A DNA stretch of 64,000 bases from Trichococcus pasteurii (lineage in GTDB: Bacteria; Bacillota; Bacilli; Lactobacillales; Aerococcaceae), in assembly GCF_900112935.1 (NCBI RefSeq), contig NZ_FONM01000010.1, positions 1-64,000 on the forward strand, read 5' to 3'. The number at the start of each line of letters is the position of its first letter. Within the stretch, counting starts at the first letter, position 1. The translations under genes were made by a program, and so were the position numbers. A model generated the notes under the pieces. That model did no database searches. It saw only the letters and a program-made list of their open reading frames with translations, and was not told the origin of the DNA. Of this stretch, positions 750 through 50,858 are shown piece by piece.

Positions 750-2246
750 TCAGCCACATCCATTGTTTCCATCGGCCCGCAGCTTGTACACAAGCCCCAA
801 CACTTGAACGGCGATGATTGGGGTCATCGCGACGAGGGCGATCATGCCGAAGCTTTCGGAGATGAGGTTGTCTTCGGCCATCGCGCTGGCGGCGCCTTGG
901 ACGAAGGAGAGGATGAAGGTCGCAGTCATCGGCCCGGATGCGACGCCGCCGGAATCGAAGGCGATGCCGATGAATATCTTGGGGACGAAAAAGGTCAGTG
1001 TCAGCGCAATGAGGTAGCCCGGCAGCAGATAGTGCCAAAGCTGGATTTGAGGGAATACAATCCGCAGCATCGCCAAGGCGACGGCCGTGCCGATGCCCAA
1101 GGACAGAACAGCTTTGACCGCATTCCTTTTGACAGCGCCGTTCGTGATGTCCTCGATTTGGTGCGTCAGGACATGGACGGCCGGTTCCGCCAAGACTGTG
1201 ACCAAACCGAGCACAAAGCTGATCACAAGCAAATATAGTTTATTATCCAAAGAGGCGACGTTGAAACCGATCGTGCGTCCGACTTCCATGAAGCCGCCTT
1301 GCGCGCCGAGGAGGAACAGGAAGAGGCCGATGTAGGTCAGCAGCAGGCCGTAGATGATCCACGAGACGTTTTTGCGGGACAGCCGGAAGGAAACGCGCTG
1401 CAGCAGCATGAAAATCAGGAAGATGGGCAACAGCGCCAGCAGCACTTCTTCGGCTATGACAGGCACTTTGTCGAGAAATGGGCCCAACACTGTTTGCGAA
1501 ACCGTTAAAGGCGTTCGGACCGGAGCCTCAGCGATTGGGGTTCCTTGCAAGGTTCCTCGAAAGCGGTCCATCACCAGAACCGACAGAATGGGACCGATCG
1601 AAACAACACCGATCAGCCCGAATCCGCAATCATTGGAAGCGAGGGTGCTCTTGCGCAGCAGCGTGACCCCCAGCGCCATCGACATGATGAAAGGCACCGT
1701 CATGGCGCCAGTCGTTGCGCCTGATGCATCGAAGGCGATGGCGAGGAATTCATCGGAGGCGGACAGCGCCAACAGGAACACGCCGGCGTAGAAACCTACG
1801 AGCAGTTTGTGGAGGGGGAAGGTTTTGACGATCCGGATCAATCCGATCGCAAGCATGACGGCGATGCCGACCGAAACGACGAGGATAATCCACCATTTCG
1901 ATACCGTTCCCGCTGTCAGCCGTTCGACTTGCCCGGCCAGAATGTGCAGGTCGGGCTCCGCGATGGAAATGATGAAGCCCAAAGCCAGTCCCGCTCCTGC
2001 CAGCAGCAGGAGGCTATCCGTCTTGGCGAAAGTCCGCCCCATCGCCCGACCGATCAGGTTGACGCTCAAATCGATGGCGTAGAGAAAAATGGATAGCCCG
2101 GCTGTTATGCAGAGAGCGCCGAACAGAAAACGGGCAAGCTGCAGGCCGGTCAGCGGCGTCAAGGTGATATGCAGCAGCAGGACGATTCCGACGACCGGAA
2201 GGACCGCTTGCAGCACTTCCCTGACTTTTGACACGAACAGCTTCAT
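750..2246 (-). CDS. DUF1538 family membrane protein
   Basis: Polytopic membrane protein of 498 residues made of two homologous halves. The first half carries AEPDLHIL and a later IAFDASGATTGAM; the second half repeats these as AEPAVHVL and IAFDSGGVASGPM. This duplicated AEPxxHxL / IAFDxxGxxxGxM pattern is the DUF1538 signature. Members are proposed cation transporters, but I cannot assign a substrate. The ATG at 2246 has AAAGGCGGTG six bases upstream, so I prefer it to the GTG at 2255, where the ribosome site would be too close. A paralogue lies at 48633-50120; that one has a P-II partner gene and this one does not. Confidence 0.85.
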   Translation of the reverse strand: MKLFVSKVREVLQAVLPVVGIVLLLHITLTPLTGLQLARFLFGALCITAGLSIFLYAIDLSVNLIGRAMGRTFAKTDSLLLLAGAGLALGFIISIAEPDLHILAGQVERLTAGTVSKWWIILVVSVGIAVMLAIGLIRIVKTFPLHKLLVGFYAGVFLLALSASDEFLAIAFDASGATTGAMTVPFIMSMALGVTLLRKSTLASNDCGFGLIGVVSIGPILSVLVMDRFRGTLQGTPIAEAPVRTPLTVSQTVLGPFLDKVPVIAEEVLLALLPIFLIFMLLQRVSFRLSRKNVSWIIYGLLLTYIGLFLFLLGAQGGFMEVGRTIGFNVASLDNKLYLLVISFVLGLVTVLAEPAVHVLTHQIEDITNGAVKRNAVKAVLSLGIGTAVALAMLRIVFPQIQLWHYLLPGYLIALTLTFFVPKIFIGIAFDSGGVASGPMTATFILSFVQGAASAMAEDNLISESFGMIALVAMTPIIAVQVLGLVYKLRADGNNGCG

Positions 2247-2318
2247 CGTAGGCACCGCCTTTCCTGGATTAGGGCTTGGAGGAATCGCACTTGTTTCTTT
2301 ATTATTGATGCTGCCGTT

Positions 2319-12009: not shown

Positions 12010-12822
12010 TCACACAGCCAGCTCGTCTTTTTGGTTGATGACGTTCAGGATCGATTCGCGCATCGTCATGTATTGCTTGGAGTAGCGGGCGCTTTCGCTG
12101 TTGGCGCCGTCCATGTCGTAGGTGAAGTCGGTGTCGAGCACCTTCACGATGCGGCCGGGCCGGCTGGACATGACGATGACTTTCGTCGCCAACGACAGGG
12201 CTTCGTCCACGTCATGGGTGATGAAGAAGACGGTGCTCTGGTTCTTCATCCAGATGCGGCGGATCAGCGCCTGCATCTTATCGCGGGTCAGGGCGTCGAG
12301 CGCGCCGAACGGTTCGTCCATCAGGATCATGCCCGGTTCGTTGACGAGCACTTTGGCCAAGGAAGCGCGTTGCTTCATCCCGCCGGAAAGTTCATAAGGT
12401 TTGCGGTTGGCGAAGTCCGTAAGTCCGACGATTTCCAGGTATTCCGCCGTGATCGCCTCACGTTCCTTTTCCGGAATGTTGCGCATGCGCAGTCCGAAAT
12501 TGACGTTCTCTTTGATCGTCAGCCACGGATAGAGCGGCGGCGACTGGAAGACAACCCCGCGCTGCCAATCCGGTCCTTCGATCGGCCTGCCGTTCATCAA
12601 GGCTTGCCCGTCAGTCGGCTGCATGAAGCCCGCGATGATGTTCAAGAGCGTGCTCTTGCCACAGCCGGATGGTCCCATTACGCAGATGAACTCACCTTCT
12701 TGGATGTCGAGATTGACTTGGGCCAAGGCCGTCACTGTCCCGATTTCGCTGTTGTAGACCAGTTCGACATCCTCCAGTTTTACCACTGTCTTTCCGTTTA
12801 TTCCGTCATAAGCTCTCTGCAT
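12010..12822 (-). CDS. Taurine/sulfonate-type ABC transporter ATP-binding protein
   Basis: Protein of 270 residues of the NitT/TauT ATPase group. Walker A is GPSGCGKST (about 50-58), the signature is LSGGMKQRASLAKVL, and Walker B is MILMDEPFGALD. The VVFQSPPLYPWLTIKENV segment is typical of SsuB/TauB. It powers uptake by the binding protein and permease encoded directly upstream. The gene follows the binding-protein gene by 11 bp. A TATAAT-like motif overlaps its stop codon on the minus strand, but I do not think it proves a separate promoter for the dehydrogenase gene. Confidence 0.88.
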   Translation of the reverse strand: MQRAYDGINGKTVVKLEDVELVYNSEIGTVTALAQVNLDIQEGEFICVMGPSGCGKSTLLNIIAGFMQPTDGQALMNGRPIEGPDWQRGVVFQSPPLYPWLTIKENVNFGLRMRNIPEKEREAITAEYLEIVGLTDFANRKPYELSGGMKQRASLAKVLVNEPGMILMDEPFGALDALTRDKMQALIRRIWMKNQSTVFFITHDVDEALSLATKVIVMSSRPGRIVKVLDTDFTYDMDGANSESARYSKQYMTMRESILNVINQKDELAV

Positions 12823-12833
12823 AGCGGCTCCCC

Positions 12834-13892
12834 CTATTCTTTGGAATCCAAGTAAGCTTGGATGTATGTCGTGTTGATGCCTTCAGCGAAAGCTTCTTCG
12901 CTCGGCAAATCGGTGATGTTGCCTTGATCCAAATAGAACTGGCCCATGTCAAGCATCGTAGCGGCCATTGCGCCGACTGCCTCGGAAGTGCCCAGGTTGG
13001 CTGCATCCAATTGTTCCGCTGCGGAAATCCAGTTCTGGCCTTCCATTTGCAGCTTAGCGGACTCTTCAGTGATGTTCAGCGATTTAGCGATGATGGAGAT
13101 GGCTTGGTCAGGGTCTTCTCGGTAAAGCGTTACGGCTTTATCGACTGAGGCGATGTACTTCTCGACGATTTCCGGATAGGCTTCACCGAATTCGCTGCGG
13201 ACGATTTCCACGTTGGCTGTCATATAACCCATTTCCGCCACGTCTCCACTGTGCAGAACGATGTTGCCGTCAGCCAGCAATTCGCTGAGGGTAGGCTCCC
13301 AAACATATGCAGCATCGATGTCGCCACGTTGCCATGCCGCAAAGATATCGGAAGGCTGCAGATCGATCAGTGTGAAATCAGTCTCTTCAAAACCGCTGGC
13401 CGTAATGGCGCGCAACAGGCTGTAGTGGGCCGTACTGGCGAAAGGAACGCCGATGTTCTTGCCTTTCAGGTCTTCCAAGGAGGTAGCGTTCAGCGCGTTT
13501 TTCGCTGCCAAAGCCTCTACCGAACCGAGTGTCTCATGGATCCAGATCATTTCGATCGGGATGCCTGAAGCGATGCCCAATACGGCCGAGCCCGAACCGG
13601 TCAAGCCGAAGTCGACGGCACCGGAAACCATGGCCTGGTTGATGGCTTTTCCACTTTCGAATTGGACGACTTCGACTGGCACACCCAGTTCATCTTCAAA
13701 ATAGCCTTCCGCTTTCGCGATGCCTTCATCATTCGGCATTTCCAGGGTCGCGATGACGACTTTCTCAGGCAGATCGCCATCAGCTGAAGCTGTGGAAGAG
13801 TCGGTCGCGCTGGACGCGCCTCCGCAAGCCGCGAACAAAAGAGCCGAGCAAGATAAGAACAGTAGTTTAGAGAACATGTGGTTTTTTTTCAT
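12834..13892 (-). CDS. Taurine/sulfonate-type ABC transporter substrate-binding lipoprotein
   Basis: Protein of 352 residues. The N-terminus is a lipoprotein signal with lipobox FAAC. The mature part is an NMT1/TauA-type periplasmic-binding fold: VVEVVQFESGKAINQAMVSGAVDFGLTGSGSAVLGIASGIPIEMI is the usual family block, followed by WEPTLSELL and the C-terminal helical region. It captures the substrate outside the cell for the permease encoded 12 bp upstream. Context with an aminotransferase and a family III dehydrogenase favours taurine over sulfonates or nitrate, because no monooxygenase or nitrate reductase is present. Confidence 0.85.
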   Translation of the reverse strand: MKKNHMFSKLLFLSCSALLFAACGGASSATDSSTASADGDLPEKVVIATLEMPNDEGIAKAEGYFEDELGVPVEVVQFESGKAINQAMVSGAVDFGLTGSGSAVLGIASGIPIEMIWIHETLGSVEALAAKNALNATSLEDLKGKNIGVPFASTAHYSLLRAITASGFEETDFTLIDLQPSDIFAAWQRGDIDAAYVWEPTLSELLADGNIVLHSGDVAEMGYMTANVEIVRSEFGEAYPEIVEKYIASVDKAVTLYREDPDQAISIIAKSLNITEESAKLQMEGQNWISAAEQLDAANLGTSEAVGAMAATMLDMGQFYLDQGNITDLPSEEAFAEGINTTYIQAYLDSKE

Positions 13893-13904
13893 AAAAGCCT
13901 CCGA

Positions 13905-14753
13905 TTATTTTCCTGCCCAAGGGACAAATTTATTTTGTATGATGACGATGATTTTATCCAAAAGAATGCCGGTGATGCCCATGATGATGATGCCGACGAA
14001 GACGATGTCGCTGCGCAGATAGTTGCTGGCATCAAGGACCAGCCAGCCGATTCCGGTCATTGCGGCAACCATTTCCGCCGAAACAAGGGTCGTATAAGCG
14101 ACGCTGAGTGCGGTGCGCAGGCTCGTCAGGATATCCGGCAAGCAAGAAGGCAGGATGACATGGAAGAACACTTGCGTCTGGCTGGCGCCGACCGTTTTCG
14201 CGCTGTTGATGAAGTCTGTGTTGACTTTCGCAACGGCAGAGACGCAGCTGACGTAGATCGGTGCGAAGGCCGCCAGGAAAAGCAAGGCGACTTTCGAAGC
14301 ATCCGCGATCCCTAGCCCCATTACCAACAGAGTGTAGTAAGCCAATGGCGGCAGCGGGCGGTAGAAGTTGATGATCGGATCCAAGGCGGCTTTGATCTTC
14401 GTGTTGTAGCCGCTGAGCAGGCCCAACGGAATCGCGGCGATGATCGCCAATCCGAAGGCACTGAGCAGGCGCCATAAGCTGGTGCCGATGTGCTGCAGCA
14501 AGGAGAAGCCTTTATAGCCGTTGAAGAGGATCTCCACGAAGGCCGTCCAAACCGCCAACGGGCTCGGCAGCAGCATCGGGCTGACCAGCCCCAGCGCGGT
14601 AACGACATACCAGAGTACCATGATCGTTGCGACGGTGCCGACGGTGATCATTTTTTCCGGCTGGATCCTCTTTCGTCTTTTCTTAACCGCGATCGCGGAC
14701 GTGCTTTGCTCGGGAATCAGTGCATCGCTTGTGAGCGTATCTGCTTTCTTCAT
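13905..14753 (-). CDS. Taurine/sulfonate-type ABC transporter permease
   Basis: Protein of 282 residues with about six transmembrane helices and the BPD_transp_1 fold. The EAA-like loop is seen in INSAKTVGASQTQVFFHVILPSCLPDILTSLR. A cytoplasmic N-terminal tail of about 45 basic residues precedes the first helix. I choose the ATG at 14753 because AAGGAGGAC lies six bases upstream; the longer frame to 14795 would overlap the P-II gene. It pairs with the ATPase and binding protein of the same operon to import a sulfonate or amine substrate. Confidence 0.87.
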   Translation of the reverse strand: MKKADTLTSDALIPEQSTSAIAVKKRRKRIQPEKMITVGTVATIMVLWYVVTALGLVSPMLLPSPLAVWTAFVEILFNGYKGFSLLQHIGTSLWRLLSAFGLAIIAAIPLGLLSGYNTKIKAALDPIINFYRPLPPLAYYTLLVMGLGIADASKVALLFLAAFAPIYVSCVSAVAKVNTDFINSAKTVGASQTQVFFHVILPSCLPDILTSLRTALSVAYTTLVSAEMVAAMTGIGWLVLDASNYLRSDIVFVGIIIMGITGILLDKIIVIIQNKFVPWAGK

Positions 14754-14791
14754 AAAATTGTCCTCCTTGGTCTCTTTTCGCCTAACCTGTT

Positions 14792-15109
14792 TCATGCGCG
14801 GCGTACCTGATATTCGCGGGCGATCGTTTGCACGAAAATTTTGCCGTCCCCCGCCTGGCCGGTGCTGTTGACCGCCAGCAGGATGCCGATCACATTTTCC
14901 ACATGCTCATCCTCCGTCACGATCGTAAACATCCGTTTCGGCATCAGCACGCTGTGTCCGACTGTTTCGCGGAAGTCTCTCCCTATCAGCGGGTTCTTGC
15001 CGCGTCCGAAGACTTTTCGGCAAGTGAAGCCCGGAAAACCGCCTGCAGCCAGTTTTTGTTTCGTTTCCGTCACCTTGTTCAGGCGAATGATCGCTGTCAC
15101 TTCCTTCAT
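14792..15109 (-). CDS. P-II family regulator, NifI2-like
   Basis: Protein of 105 residues with the P-II fold: MKEVTAIIRLNKVTETKQKL at the start, a T-loop region after VFGRGKNPL, and the conserved C-terminal TGQAGDGKIFV block. The FPGFTCRKVFGRGK and 'MPKRMFTIVTEDEHVENVIGILL' patterns fit NifI2 proteins, which bind 2-oxoglutarate and ATP and control nitrogenase in archaea and anaerobes. No nitrogenase gene is in this window. Here it sits between a NifI1-like gene and a taurine transporter gene, so it may gate uptake or transamination by nitrogen status. AAAGGTGGG precedes the ATG. Confidence 0.8.
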   Translation of the reverse strand: MKEVTAIIRLNKVTETKQKLAAGGFPGFTCRKVFGRGKNPLIGRDFRETVGHSVLMPKRMFTIVTEDEHVENVIGILLAVNSTGQAGDGKIFVQTIAREYQVRRA

Positions 15110-15136
15110 ACAATTCCCACCTTTACAGTCCTTCTA

Positions 15137-15466
15137 TTAAAGTCCTTCTGCGCCGCTACTGATTGTATAGGCACTTTCGATTGCGTGTACGAATATTCTG
15201 CCGTCGCCGTAATTCCCCAGATCGCTTGTGCGCGCCTGGGTGGTGATGACGTCGACGATTTCCTTTTCATGGGCTGCCTCGGCAACCAGGAACAGCAATT
15301 CCTTCGGCAGCTCGTCGTAGAAAACGTCGCCGATATGGATGCCAGCCTGTTTCCCACGTCCGTACACATCCATCCGTGTCACGGCGGTGTGCCCTTTTTC
15401 AGCAAGTTTCGCCAAAATCTGTTCGGTCTTCTCCGGCCTCACGATGGCCTCAATTTTCACTAGCAT
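15137..15466 (-). CDS. P-II family regulator, NifI1-like
   Basis: Protein of 109 residues. MLVKIEAIVRPEK, AVTRMDVYGRGKQAGI, YDELPKELLFLV and YGDGRIFVHAIESAYTISSG follow the NifI1 pattern closely. The T-loop Tyr that is uridylylated in GlnB is not in the usual context, as in NifI proteins. It should form a complex with the NifI2-like protein encoded 27 bp downstream and sense 2-oxoglutarate. The ATG at 15466 has AAGGAG eight bases upstream; the GTG at 15475 is too close to it. Its place between the aminotransferase and the transporter is unusual for this family. Confidence 0.82.
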   Translation of the reverse strand: MLVKIEAIVRPEKTEQILAKLAEKGHTAVTRMDVYGRGKQAGIHIGDVFYDELPKELLFLVAEAAHEKEIVDVITTQARTSDLGNYGDGRIFVHAIESAYTISSGAEGL

Positions 15467-15529
15467 GCGCTCCACTCCTTTTATCCAGTAGATTTTTTGA
15501 AATGTGGTGCGGCCGGGATCCGGCGCAGT

Positions 15530-16894
15530 TTACATATATTGCTCATCGACAAGCGTCAGCACTTCATCCAGGATTGGCATCACTTCAGCCAACTCTGCTT
15601 CGGTGATCGTAAGCGGAGGGCAGACGCTGATCGTCGTTTCGCGGCCGAAAGTCGAGAATCCTCGGTCCTTGAGTTCCTTGTAGATGGCCGGCATGATCCG
15701 ATTCGGCGTGTTGAACGGCACGAGCGGCTCGCGCGTTTCCTTGTCGAGCACCAGCTCCACTCCGCAGAAGAGTCCATAAGTTCGGACATCGCCGACGCAA
15801 GGATGCTTGGCTTTCATCTCATCCAGGTAGTCCTTCAAGATTGCGCCGATCTTTTCAACGTTGGCGGCGATGTTTTCATCTTCGTAGACTTCCAATGTCG
15901 CCAAGCCAGCCGCGCAAGCCAATGTGTGGCCGCTGTAGGTCAAGCCGCATTGGAGTTGGTTCTCGGTGAAATATTCACTGATCCATTCGGAGACGATCAC
16001 GCCACCCAACGGCACATAACCTGATGTCACCCCTTTGGCAAAAGTGATCATGTCCGGCGTAAACGCGTATTGCTGGAAAGCGAAAGCCGTTCCGGTCCGG
16101 TAGAAGCCGGCCATGACTTCATCACAGATCATCACGATGCCGTAGCTGTTGCAAAGGTTGCGCACCCCTTCCAGATAGCCTTTCGGGTAGGCGATGATGC
16201 CGTTCGCGCCGATGACCGTTTCCAAGAGGATGGCCGCCACGTTGTACGGGCCTTCGTATTGGATCTGTTCACCCAGTTTCTTAAGGTAGAAGGCCGTCAA
16301 TGCCTCTTCGGTTTCAAATGGAAGGTTGTCGCGGTAAGGCGACGGATTGGAGAATTTCACGAAGCCGTTCGCGCCGCCGATTTCAGCCGCGAACCTGCGC
16401 GAATCCCCGGAAGCATTCGATGCTGCAAGTGTAGCGCCGTGGTAGCTGTGGTAGCCGCTGAACACTTTCGTGCGCCCCGTCGCGATCCGCGCCATCTTGA
16501 TCGCATTCTCGTTCGCATCCGCTCCGGCATTCGTGAAGAACACGCGCGCCATATCCCCGCCGGCCAGCTCGACCAGTTTCTTCGCCAACAGAGACTTCAC
16601 ATCGGTCGCATAACTCGGTGCCATGAAGCACATCTTTGCAGCCTGATCCTGGATCGCCTTCACGACTTTCGGATGCTGATGGCCGATGTTCGCGTTCACC
16701 AATAAGGAGGACATATCCACTTGACGGTTGCCTTCATAGTCCCAGAAATAAATGCCTTCCGCCTTTTCGACTGCCATCGCCGCTTGGCCCTGCTTCGACC
16801 AGGCCCGCATCACGTACTGTTGATCCATCGCTATTACTTCTTCTCCGGTTAGAGTTGTTGCTGTCGTTGTATTCCATGTTGCGTTCACTGTCAT
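15530..16894 (-). CDS. Class III aminotransferase, probable taurine:2-oxoglutarate aminotransferase
   Basis: Protein of 454 residues of the class III (omega) aminotransferases. The PLP lysine is K287 in TFAKGVTSGYVPLGG, and D258 in ICDEV contacts the pyridine nitrogen. GYHSYHGAT and NAGADANENAIKMAR are the expected cofactor-binding segments. As first gene of an operon with a taurine-type transporter and an iron-type dehydrogenase, it probably moves the amino group of taurine to 2-oxoglutarate, giving glutamate and sulfoacetaldehyde. A beta-alanine or GABA aminotransferase is the main alternative. GGGAGGTAA precedes the ATG, which supports the 22-residue N-terminal extension. Confidence 0.8.
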   Translation of the reverse strand: MTVNATWNTTTATTLTGEEVIAMDQQYVMRAWSKQGQAAMAVEKAEGIYFWDYEGNRQVDMSSLLVNANIGHQHPKVVKAIQDQAAKMCFMAPSYATDVKSLLAKKLVELAGGDMARVFFTNAGADANENAIKMARIATGRTKVFSGYHSYHGATLAASNASGDSRRFAAEIGGANGFVKFSNPSPYRDNLPFETEEALTAFYLKKLGEQIQYEGPYNVAAILLETVIGANGIIAYPKGYLEGVRNLCNSYGIVMICDEVMAGFYRTGTAFAFQQYAFTPDMITFAKGVTSGYVPLGGVIVSEWISEYFTENQLQCGLTYSGHTLACAAGLATLEVYEDENIAANVEKIGAILKDYLDEMKAKHPCVGDVRTYGLFCGVELVLDKETREPLVPFNTPNRIMPAIYKELKDRGFSTFGRETTISVCPPLTITEAELAEVMPILDEVLTLVDEQYM

Positions 16895-48632: not shown

Positions 48633-50120
48633 ATGCGTATATTTACAGAAAAATTAAGGGAAGTCATGCAGTCGGTGATGCCGATCACGCTGCTGGTCGT
48701 CCTGCTCCACTTTACTTTGACTCCGCTCGAGACGATTGACCTGCAGCGGTTCCTGTTCGGGGCGCTGCTCATCATCATCGGCTTATCCATCTTCCTTTTC
48801 GGAGTGGACATCGGCATCACGCCGATCGGGAAATTCCTCGGGAAAGGCTTGGCCCGCAGCGGCAGCATGAAATACGTGCTTGGAATGGGGCTTGTACTCG
48901 GTTTCTTCATCTCGATTGCGGAGCCGGATCTGCATATTTTGGCGGCGCAGGTTTCCGAGGTCACGAACGGCATGTATCCGAAGAATATGCTCCTGCTTGT
49001 CGTTTCCGTCGGCATCGCCGTGATGCTGACGATTGGATTGTTCCGGATCGTTTACCGCTATCCGCTGAACAAGACGTTCACGTTCCTCTACCTTGCCATC
49101 TTCGGCTTGGCTTACTTCAGCACGAACGACCTGTTCGCCATCGCTTTTGATGCATCGGGATCGACTACCGGCGCTTTGACCGTGCCCTTCATGTTGGCGC
49201 TGGCTGTCGGGGTCGCCTCCCTGAACCGGCGGACGCAATCAGCGGAAGAGGACAGCTTCGGCTTGGTGGGGATCGCCTCAGCCGGCGCCATTCTGGCCGT
49301 ATTAATCCTGGGTTTATTCGTCCGTTCCGACGAACCGCTCTCGGGATCGATGCCTACAAGCTCAGCTACGGTGACCCACTGGCTTGCGCCATTCCTGCAC
49401 GAACTGCCGAAAATCGCGGGCGAAATCCTGTTGGCCGTTTCGCCTATATTGATCATATTCGTGCTCAATCATGTTTTTTTCGCTGATGAGAAGCTTTCGA
49501 AACGCGCATTCCGCCGAATTTTCTTGGGGATGGCTTATCTGTTCGTCGGACTGGTCCTTTTCCTGACCGGCGTGAATGCCGGTTTCATGGAAGTCGGGCG
49601 CAAGCTCGGCATGCTGATCGCTGGGATGGACAGTTCCATTCCGGTCCTGATCGTCGGTTTTGTGCTGGGGGTATTGGTCATTTTGGCGGAACCTGCGGTA
49701 TATGTATTGACGCATCAAATAGAAGATGTTACAACAGGGTATGTAAAGCGCGGTATTGTACTGGGATTCCTGTCCATCGGAGTCGGGCTCGCCGTCCTCT
49801 TGTCGGTCGTGCGTGTGCTCATCCCTTGGCTGCAACTGTGGCACTATCTTGTCCCCGGCTATCTGATCATCCTCGCCCTCTCCTACAAAGTCCCGAAGTT
49901 GTTCGTCGGGATAGCCTTTGATGCGGGCGGCGTCGCTTCCGGGCCGATGACGGCCACTTTCATCCTGGCGTTCATCCAAGGTGTCGCGGAAATCACGCCG
50001 GATGCCAACGTGCTCTTGGAAGGCTTCGGGATGATCGCAATGGTGGCGATGATGCCGATCATCTCGCTGCAATTGCTAGGCGCCATCTACCAGCGCAATA
50101 GTGTAAAGGAGGGTCTTTAA
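48633..50120 (+). CDS. DUF1538 family membrane protein with P-II partner
   Basis: Membrane protein of 495 residues, a paralogue of the product of 750-2246. It has the same two-fold repeat: AEPDLHIL with IAFDASGSTTGAL in the first half, AEPAVYVL with IAFDAGGVASGPM in the second. About 14 membrane segments. Its stop codon TAA is directly followed by the ATG of a tandem P-II gene (TAAATG), so both are made together. P-II proteins commonly gate membrane transporters, which supports a transport role for DUF1538. Ion or solute unknown. Confidence 0.85.
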   Translation: MRIFTEKLREVMQSVMPITLLVVLLHFTLTPLETIDLQRFLFGALLIIIGLSIFLFGVDIGITPIGKFLGKGLARSGSMKYVLGMGLVLGFFISIAEPDLHILAAQVSEVTNGMYPKNMLLLVVSVGIAVMLTIGLFRIVYRYPLNKTFTFLYLAIFGLAYFSTNDLFAIAFDASGSTTGALTVPFMLALAVGVASLNRRTQSAEEDSFGLVGIASAGAILAVLILGLFVRSDEPLSGSMPTSSATVTHWLAPFLHELPKIAGEILLAVSPILIIFVLNHVFFADEKLSKRAFRRIFLGMAYLFVGLVLFLTGVNAGFMEVGRKLGMLIAGMDSSIPVLIVGFVLGVLVILAEPAVYVLTHQIEDVTTGYVKRGIVLGFLSIGVGLAVLLSVVRVLIPWLQLWHYLVPGYLIILALSYKVPKLFVGIAFDAGGVASGPMTATFILAFIQGVAEITPDANVLLEGFGMIAMVAMMPIISLQLLGAIYQRNSVKEGL

Positions 50121-50786
50121 ATGACCAAACAAGTTGAAAACACAAAATTCTACGACGTCATTTTTGTCGTCGTCAACATCGGCAAAGCCAGCCGGGTGCT
50201 TGAGGAAGCGAAGAAATGCGGCATCACCGGAGGAACCATCATGCATGGTTCCGGCACGGTTTCCAGCACTTTATTGCGCACAATCGGTTTTCATGAAGTA
50301 AAAAAAGAGATCCTCTTTATGGTCTGCGCTCGTGAAAAAACGCAGCCTGCCATCGAACACATCAGCTCACTCTTCCATTTCGAGTTGCCGAATCGCGGCA
50401 TCCTCTTCACGAGTCCGGTTTCGCATCTGCTGGGCACTCACGGCGAACGCCTGCACATGGATGAACAGGAAGCCCATCTGCTGGCCGATCACGAAGTTTT
50501 CTTCACGCTCGTCGCCGCAGGATTGGGAGACGAAGTCGTCGAAGCTGCAGCAGCGGCAGGCGCACGCGGCGGCACCCTCTTCCACGGTACCGGAGCCTTC
50601 GCAGAAAAATGCCGAAAAGTGTTCGGGATCGAAGTGGATGCCGGCAAAGACATCATCATGAACCTCGTCACCTCCGCTGTCGCTCCGGCGGTGGAAACCG
50701 CCATCGTCGAGCAGATGCAACTGGATGTGCCGGGTAATGGCATCCTGTTCAGTTTCGATGCCGAAAATGTGCGCGGGGTGCGTTAA
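50121..50786 (+). CDS. Tandem P-II-like domain protein
   Basis: Protein of 221 residues with two GlnB-like domains, about 8-100 and 118-221. Each has the P-II strand order and a GG-T-x-x-HG turn (GITGGTIMHGSGT, then GARGGTLFHGTGA), in place of the long uridylylated T-loop. The second domain ends with LDVPGNGILFSFD, similar to the PII GDGKIFV position. It most likely controls the DUF1538 membrane protein encoded immediately upstream, in response to a nucleotide or metabolite. AAAGGAGGG precedes the ATG inside the end of the upstream gene. Confidence 0.82.
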   Translation: MTKQVENTKFYDVIFVVVNIGKASRVLEEAKKCGITGGTIMHGSGTVSSTLLRTIGFHEVKKEILFMVCAREKTQPAIEHISSLFHFELPNRGILFTSPVSHLLGTHGERLHMDEQEAHLLADHEVFFTLVAAGLGDEVVEAAAAAGARGGTLFHGTGAFAEKCRKVFGIEVDAGKDIIMNLVTSAVAPAVETAIVEQMQLDVPGNGILFSFDAENVRGVR

Positions 50787-50817
50787 GAAAAACACGATTT
50801 GATAGACAAACTTAATG

Positions 50818-50858
50818 GACCCGGATTGGTGTTTGATGCCGATCCGGGTTTTTGTTTT
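50818..50858 (+). terminator. Terminator after the DUF1538/P-II genes
   Basis: ACCCGGAT (50819-50826) pairs with ATCCGGGT (50842-50849), followed by TTTTGTTTT. Confidence 0.85.

Follow-up and report, generated by a model that had tools for sequence, protein, structure and literature searches.

In a window of 64,000 nucleotides from Trichococcus pasteurii (the whole stretch of DNA that was analysed), a gene for a DUF1538 membrane protein is followed directly by a gene for a protein with two P-II domains. The pair likely represents a module made up of a fused UmpAB-type cation/H+ antiporter and a dedicated P-II-type regulatory subunit, encoded by two genes here and by three or four elsewhere (Table 1). 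P-II control of transporters is already known; a DUF1538 antiporter as the partner would be a variant of it. Should the partner gate the antiporter, signalling through P-II would reach monovalent cation and pH homeostasis directly, by way of a divergent ligand site. The presence of the pairing in nearly every related bacterium examined suggests an overlooked switch for salt and pH balance.

Table 1. Coordinates of the two-gene unit and of the paralogous gene in the window
Feature	Position	Strand	Basis
UmpAB-like protein, predicted antiporter, 495 aa	48633..50120	+	PF07556 424.8 bits, two stretches
First DUF1538 domain, UmpA-like	48684..49319	+	PF07556 221.3 bits
Candidate P-II docking site, residues 196-212 (...SAEEDSFGLV...)	49218..49268	+	Partner-specific conservation, changed in seven partnerless proteins
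Second DUF1538 domain, UmpB-like	49446..50084	+	PF07556 216 bits
AAGGAGG ribosome-binding motif for the P-II gene, within the last codons of the antiporter gene	50106..50112	+	Sequence
Double P-II-fold protein, 221 aa	50121..50786	+	PF00543 38.0 bits, cut-off 25
N-terminal P-II domain, limits approximate	50145..50432	+	Family HMM; Pfam stretch 14-102
C-terminal P-II domain, limits approximate	50484..50777	+	Best-matched part of the model
Terminator-like hairpin at the end of the two-gene unit	50817..50851	+	16-pair stem, then T-rich tail
Paralogous DUF1538 x2 protein, no P-II partner	750..2255	-	PF07556 421.5 bits

The DUF1538 Protein

The product of the first gene can be assigned firmly, on profile scores, to the DUF1538 family, as it clears the curated cut-off of PF07556 (22.6 bits) with two copies of the domain. 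The UmpA half comes first and is fused to the UmpB half. The equivalog models for UmpA and UmpB (NF041627 and NF041628) each span one half of the protein and score 164.6 and 116.9 bits, below their cut-offs of 490 and 500. Since these scores fall so far under the cut-offs, the substrate, presumably a cation, may differ from that of UmpAB.

DUF1538 is no longer wholly uncharacterised. UmpAB of Halomonas zhaodongensis, a DUF1538 protein pair, is reported to act as a Na+(Li+,K+)/H+ antiporter in E. coli KNabc and to be active as an UmpA-UmpB heterodimer (PMC5484666). UmpAB and the window's protein belong to the same family with two homologous halves, which are split or fused among the Bacillota loci. 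The window's protein differs from what is described of Halomonas UmpAB in that its halves are fused, its scores lie below the equivalog cut-offs and a P-II gene comes after it (PMC5484666). DUF1538 also figures in a published list of pH-adaptation features (PMC13255231).

Among 66 DUF1538 proteins the acidic residues E353 and D430 are invariant and E97 and D173 are at least 90% conserved; the four occupy like places in both halves, within AEP and FDxxG motifs. The structure model of the 495-residue protein has 20 helices (pLDDT 88, pTM 0.88). Searches of this model against the PDB returned nothing convincing, either with Foldseek (best E 0.018, TM no higher than 0.21 among the best 50 matches) or with VIA-align (best Z 5.5), and the DUF1538 profile had zero PDB matches at E <= 1. 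No mechanism can be read from the fold because no PDB match is convincing, and a new fold is not implied.

The Double P-II Protein

The translational junction described in the earlier note is as stated: the TAA stop of the antiporter gene (50118-50120) abuts the ATG start of its partner (50121-50123), giving TAAATG. The note's two P-II-like domains are likewise borne out, with both halves of the 221-residue protein matching a P-II profile made from family members. PF00543 was matched singly, at E <= 0.001, by 73 of the 74 aligned family members. Searched against the PDB, the family profile retrieves P-II structures, with a best E of 1.1e-9 for positions 8-105 in the N-terminal domain; phmmer with the 221-residue protein alone gave nothing significant in the PDB (best E 0.26, to unrelated proteins). 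The structure model (pLDDT 83, pTM 0.79) has P-II proteins as its top three PDB chains, the best being 1hwu chain C, with Z 9.3 and an rmsd of 2.0 A across 83 residues (model residues 124-221); the structures of SbtB and PotN also match. The Z score alone is not decisive for a P-II fold because two structures that are not P-II score close to it: 8ukm, which is a designed cage, at Z 8.9, and OqxB at Z 8.2. The possibility that the protein is not a P-II fold, on which the earlier note had made its reading depend, is nevertheless rejected, as both the family profile and the model match P-II structures.

An identical (100%) copy of the 221-residue protein is encoded on a contig with the label Sedimentibacter sp. 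SX930, and four Trichococcus genomes have copies with 90-94% identity. The hairpin that follows its gene is a pattern match of a kind seen 6 times against 3.9 expected, and its stem is the longest by far. Rfam at gathering thresholds gave no match in the window.

The Pairing in Bacillota

The earlier note called for a survey of the neighbours of DUF1538 for P-II domains, and the survey came out strongly positive. DUF1538 occurs in 139 of 398 Bacillota genomes and in none of the 14 named control genomes. A P-II gene of the family stands beside DUF1538 on the same strand at 120 of 124 loci, and a contig end truncates three of the four exceptions. In a first set of 95 loci (30 plus 65 drawn from DUF1538 genomes), 92 have the P-II gene on the same strand and downstream; L018 and L097 end at a contig edge, and L069 is truly without P-II within 3.3 kb downstream. 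In a second set P-II is present at 28 of 29 loci, the miss (L158) being cut by a contig end. For the 16 DUF1538 genomes from which no locus was examined, adjacent same-strand coordinates are seen in 14, and G291 is not judgeable from its list. In 89 of 106 pairs (spacing -60 to +400 bp) the P-II domain begins no farther than 50 bp past the stop of DUF1538. Architectures vary: UmpA and UmpB may be fused or split, and their P-II may be single, double or encoded by two tandem genes. At two loci from a separate set of close relatives (L127 and L137) the P-II genes lie upstream. When neighbouring genes from 73 loci were clustered by blastp, DUF1538 was found in 71, P-II in 60 and the next family in 9.

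At the genome level, 137 genomes have both genes, two have DUF1538 only (G056 and G304), two have P-II only (G049, a partial match, and G367) and 257 have neither. The P-II family is thus present in 137 of 139 genomes with DUF1538 and in 2 of 259 without it, counts that carry a circularity, as the profile that defines the subfamily was built from DUF1538 neighbours. Fifty-nine DUF1538-free genomes give only weak matches, presumed to be ordinary P-II proteins. In G056 the DUF1538 gene is broken by stops and there is no P-II of the family, and the G304 assembly has no match to the family profile. In G218 the P-II gene is unlinked, on a contig apart from the DUF1538 gene; in G313 it is perhaps unlinked, the DUF1538 gene found there being cut by a contig end.

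Outside Bacillota, plasmids of Methylocystis and Chelativorans (Alphaproteobacteria) carry umpA-umpB-P-II with overlapping or near-abutting genes, and annotated plasmid records show the DUF1538 and P-II neighbours side by side. Viral contigs yielded 83 pattern matches, none of which was confirmed.

Two further arrangements were seen. In G367, which has no DUF1538, a single P-II of the subfamily adjoins a CitMHS/ArsB-type permease (L186 1372-3303). Triple-domain P-II open frames of 335-379 residues lie beside DUF1538 in close relatives from the window organism's own family (L135, L136 and L139); Pfam reports no family at E 0.01 for L135.

Fusion and Co-diversification

In two genomes (G389 and G328) the antiporter carries an extra P-II domain at its own C-terminal end (loci L157 670-2550 and L167 307-2205), and a separate double P-II gene lies upstream of each fusion. 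The fused domains match the family model at E 1e-15 to 1e-16 and go unreported by the Pfam P-II model at E 0.01.

The two partners have also diversified together. Across 53 pairs, UmpAB distances and P-II distances are correlated (Mantel r 0.85, with 0 of 2000 permutations as high), a value that includes shared ancestry, and the nearest P-II belongs to one of the three nearest UmpABs in 36 of the 53. G167 has two modules, and there each P-II clusters with relatives of its own module; in G076, which has two tandem modules, the P-IIs are closer to each other than any other pairing.

The T-loop, the B-loop and the Ligand Site

The family HMM found 274 unique near-full domains, or 272 without two ordinary P-IIs (L188 and L191, genome G367). 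The GGTxxHG motif noted earlier does occur twice in the 221-residue protein, as GGTIMHG and GGTLFHG. Its interpretation as a replacement for the T-loop is rejected by the alignment, in which it falls on the strand that precedes the canonical P-II T-loop (GMTVVNVFG), with a shortened T-loop coming after. The span between the equivalents of Gly35 and Lys58 (E. coli P-II numbering, as for Lys90 below) is 17-18 residues in 258 of 274 domains, short of the full-length T-loop of canonical GlnB/GlnK. Two P-IIs of the window's genome that lie within long open frames have a span of 23, about 5 longer than the family. The window's two tandem P-IIs have spans of 19 and 14, the latter coming from a badly aligned row.

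The B-loop is altered as well. GDG[KR] occurs in three of the 274 matched domains, two of which are the ordinary P-IIs of G367, which leaves one of 272 family domains, the fused one at L167. The two domains of the 221-residue protein carry neither GDG[KR] nor the canonical GlnB/GlnK B-loop TGxxGDGK. As these alignments demonstrate, the canonical nucleotide-binding B-loop has been lost in the family. Other positions are kept: across the 274 domains the equivalents of Gly35, Lys58 and the B-loop Gly are retained in 97%, 92% and 95%, and the Lys90 equivalent is replaced by Ile in 85%. Among 172 representatives at 70% identity the corresponding counts are 164, 150 and 159, and 136 for Ile in place of Lys90. 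Given the short T-loop and the changed B-loop, these proteins probably differ from GlnB/GlnK, with their ATP/ADP/2-oxoglutarate mode, in the ligand or in how it is bound.

The Paralogue without a Partner

The window holds a second DUF1538 gene, and the earlier note was right that it lacks a P-II partner. None is found beside it in the window, where 749 bases remain downstream to the contig end, nor within about 5 kb on either side in nine of nine further genomes of the genus (at L200, 2.9 kb on one side, to the contig end). Such genes are a rare exception among DUF1538 loci. P-II is present at 18 of 24 loci in close relatives, and the six without it are all paralogue-type loci from the genus of the window.

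In a tree from a quick search, seven partnerless proteins form one clade (SH-aLRT 100, branch 1.1) among partnered proteins, with a weak enclosing fork (82). We read this as loss of the partner by the Trichococcus paralogue clade. The clade retains the invariant residues. In a comparison that excludes L018 and L069, 166 positions reach 75% conservation or more across 57 partnered proteins, and 16 of them are lost in all seven partnerless proteins, four lying at residues 205-212. This loop is a candidate docking site for P-II, and a suggestive one only, because the partnerless proteins are a single clade and so represent one event. The paralogue offers a natural comparison within one genome.

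Models for Control of the Antiporter

GlnK gates AmtB from the cytoplasm, and the GlnK-AmtB pair works in both directions. By analogy, the P-II protein probably gates the cation/H+ antiporter. It would bind the antiporter from the cytoplasm and open or block it depending on a bound small ligand, in the manner of GlnK and AmtB. It is likely to serve Na+/K+/pH balance and not nitrogen assimilation. For the gated transporter family proposed in the earlier note, a dedicated P-II partner is strongly supported by 120 of 124 loci, always on the same strand, by two fusions and by co-diversification; the binding of P-II to the antiporter, its ligand and the gating itself are what we infer from these. 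Counting against this reading are the partnerless clade, the unlinked P-II in G218 and perhaps in G313, the G304 assembly with no match to the family profile, the mutual closeness of the P-IIs from the tandem modules of G076 and the low scores with the equivalog models. Transport by Halomonas UmpAB does not depend on a cognate P-II, since umpA and umpB alone are reported to give activity in E. coli (PMC5484666). Our control list records that E. coli has an ordinary P-II of its own.

A wider proposal, tentative and on balance doubtful, is that these proteins constitute an undescribed, large class of ion antiporters, each with a near-obligate regulator of P-II type, encoded separately or in tandem, as a double or triple protein, or fused. 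Having lost the loops for ATP and 2-oxoglutarate, this regulator would respond to some other signal, for example c-di-AMP or a cation. The P-II protein would then sense salt and pH status and not nitrogen.

The P-II protein could instead be a constitutive structural subunit or assembly factor with no ligand switch, its degenerate B-loop reflecting lost nucleotide binding. This is unlikely: the near-absence of GDG[KR] (1 of 272 family domains), the P-II domains fused to the membrane protein in two genomes and the near-obligate co-occurrence would all suit such a subunit, but the conserved equivalents of Gly35, Lys58 and the B-loop Gly look as if a pocket has been preserved, DUF1538 proteins survive without a partner, and the Halomonas umpA and umpB genes are described as working alone in E. 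coli (PMC5484666). It is quite improbable that the transporter is the sensor and P-II a messenger that reports the state of the antiporter or membrane to another target such as an enzyme or transcription factor, since no linked target is visible and other neighbour families reach at most 9 of 73 loci, even though GlnK-AmtB acts both ways and the P-II gene stands apart in G218. Adjacency by chance was rejected by the neighbour survey, and adjacency without functional coupling, as in a hitch-hiking operon, is highly improbable because the only exceptions that would favour it (G218, G313, G304 and the Trichococcus paralogue) stand against 120 of 124 loci, the fusions, P-II as the only widely recurrent neighbour and two loci in another phylum.

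c-di-AMP Riboswitches and the Ion-Homeostasis Context

For the favoured reading, a P-II-gated antiporter, c-di-AMP riboswitches lend thin support to a context of ion homeostasis. In two genomes (G101 and G184) they lie directly upstream of the umpAB-P-II operon (L151 2991-3138 and L054 5071-5198), with about 51 and 20 bases separating them from the first called start codon. By a rough estimate, 0.006-0.11 such upstream cases in all would be expected by chance, depending on the assumed genome size and transcription units. RF00379 has 145 matches listed in the 139 DUF1538 genomes, two of them below the cut-off. As a general rule c-di-AMP control is unsupported, with two of about 145 riboswitches directly upstream of the module. 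The same context is suggested by the lone P-II that adjoins a CitMHS/ArsB-type permease in G367 and by the place of DUF1538 in a list of pH-adaptation features (PMC13255231). In G037 an RF00379 match lies at or just after the P-II genes, followed by a gene with a glutamine amidotransferase domain; a sub-threshold match lies in the same place in G250, of the same genus.

Relation to Known P-II Systems

The P-II fold is shared with SbtB, PotN and PstA, which have other partners and ligands. To our knowledge, no SbtB-, PotN- or PstA-like regulator is known as a double-domain protein tied to DUF1538. PstA is described as a c-di-AMP receptor (PMC4316997). The GlnK-AmtB system is alike in that a P-II gene adjoins that of a membrane transporter, and the logic of cytoplasmic gating is borrowed from it (PMC3831643). 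The DUF1538 unit differs from GlnK-AmtB in having a different transporter, a double P-II, a short T-loop and no GDGK B-loop. PII-NG, a P-II relative from a proteobacterial clade, is reported to be encoded in an operon with the CzcABC proton-cation antiporter (PMC7726332). A metal efflux pump is the neighbour there; DUF1538 is the recurrent neighbour here, other families, some of them named, reaching 9 of 73 loci at most.

The DUF1538/P-II pairing was not found described in the open-access literature, and no open-access paper was found that has "P-II family nitrogen regulator" together with DUF1538 or UmpA. The partner that accompanies DUF1538 in 137 of 139 genomes goes unmentioned, as P-II or PII, in the main text of the one functional study of DUF1538 found (PMC5484666). 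Neither term occurs in PMC12093952, nor does P-II in PMC13255231.

The window contains a second P-II/transporter unit on the minus strand (12010-16894). Its tandem P-II genes (14798-15109 and 15155-15457) lie between a gene for a class-III aminotransferase and those of an ABC transporter (permease, NMT1/OpuAC-type binding protein and ATPase). Three more P-II matches lie in open frames of 560-605 residues on other contigs (C26, C46 and C35 of G000; L110-L112), and these frames may be transporter-P-II fusions such as Amt-P-II.
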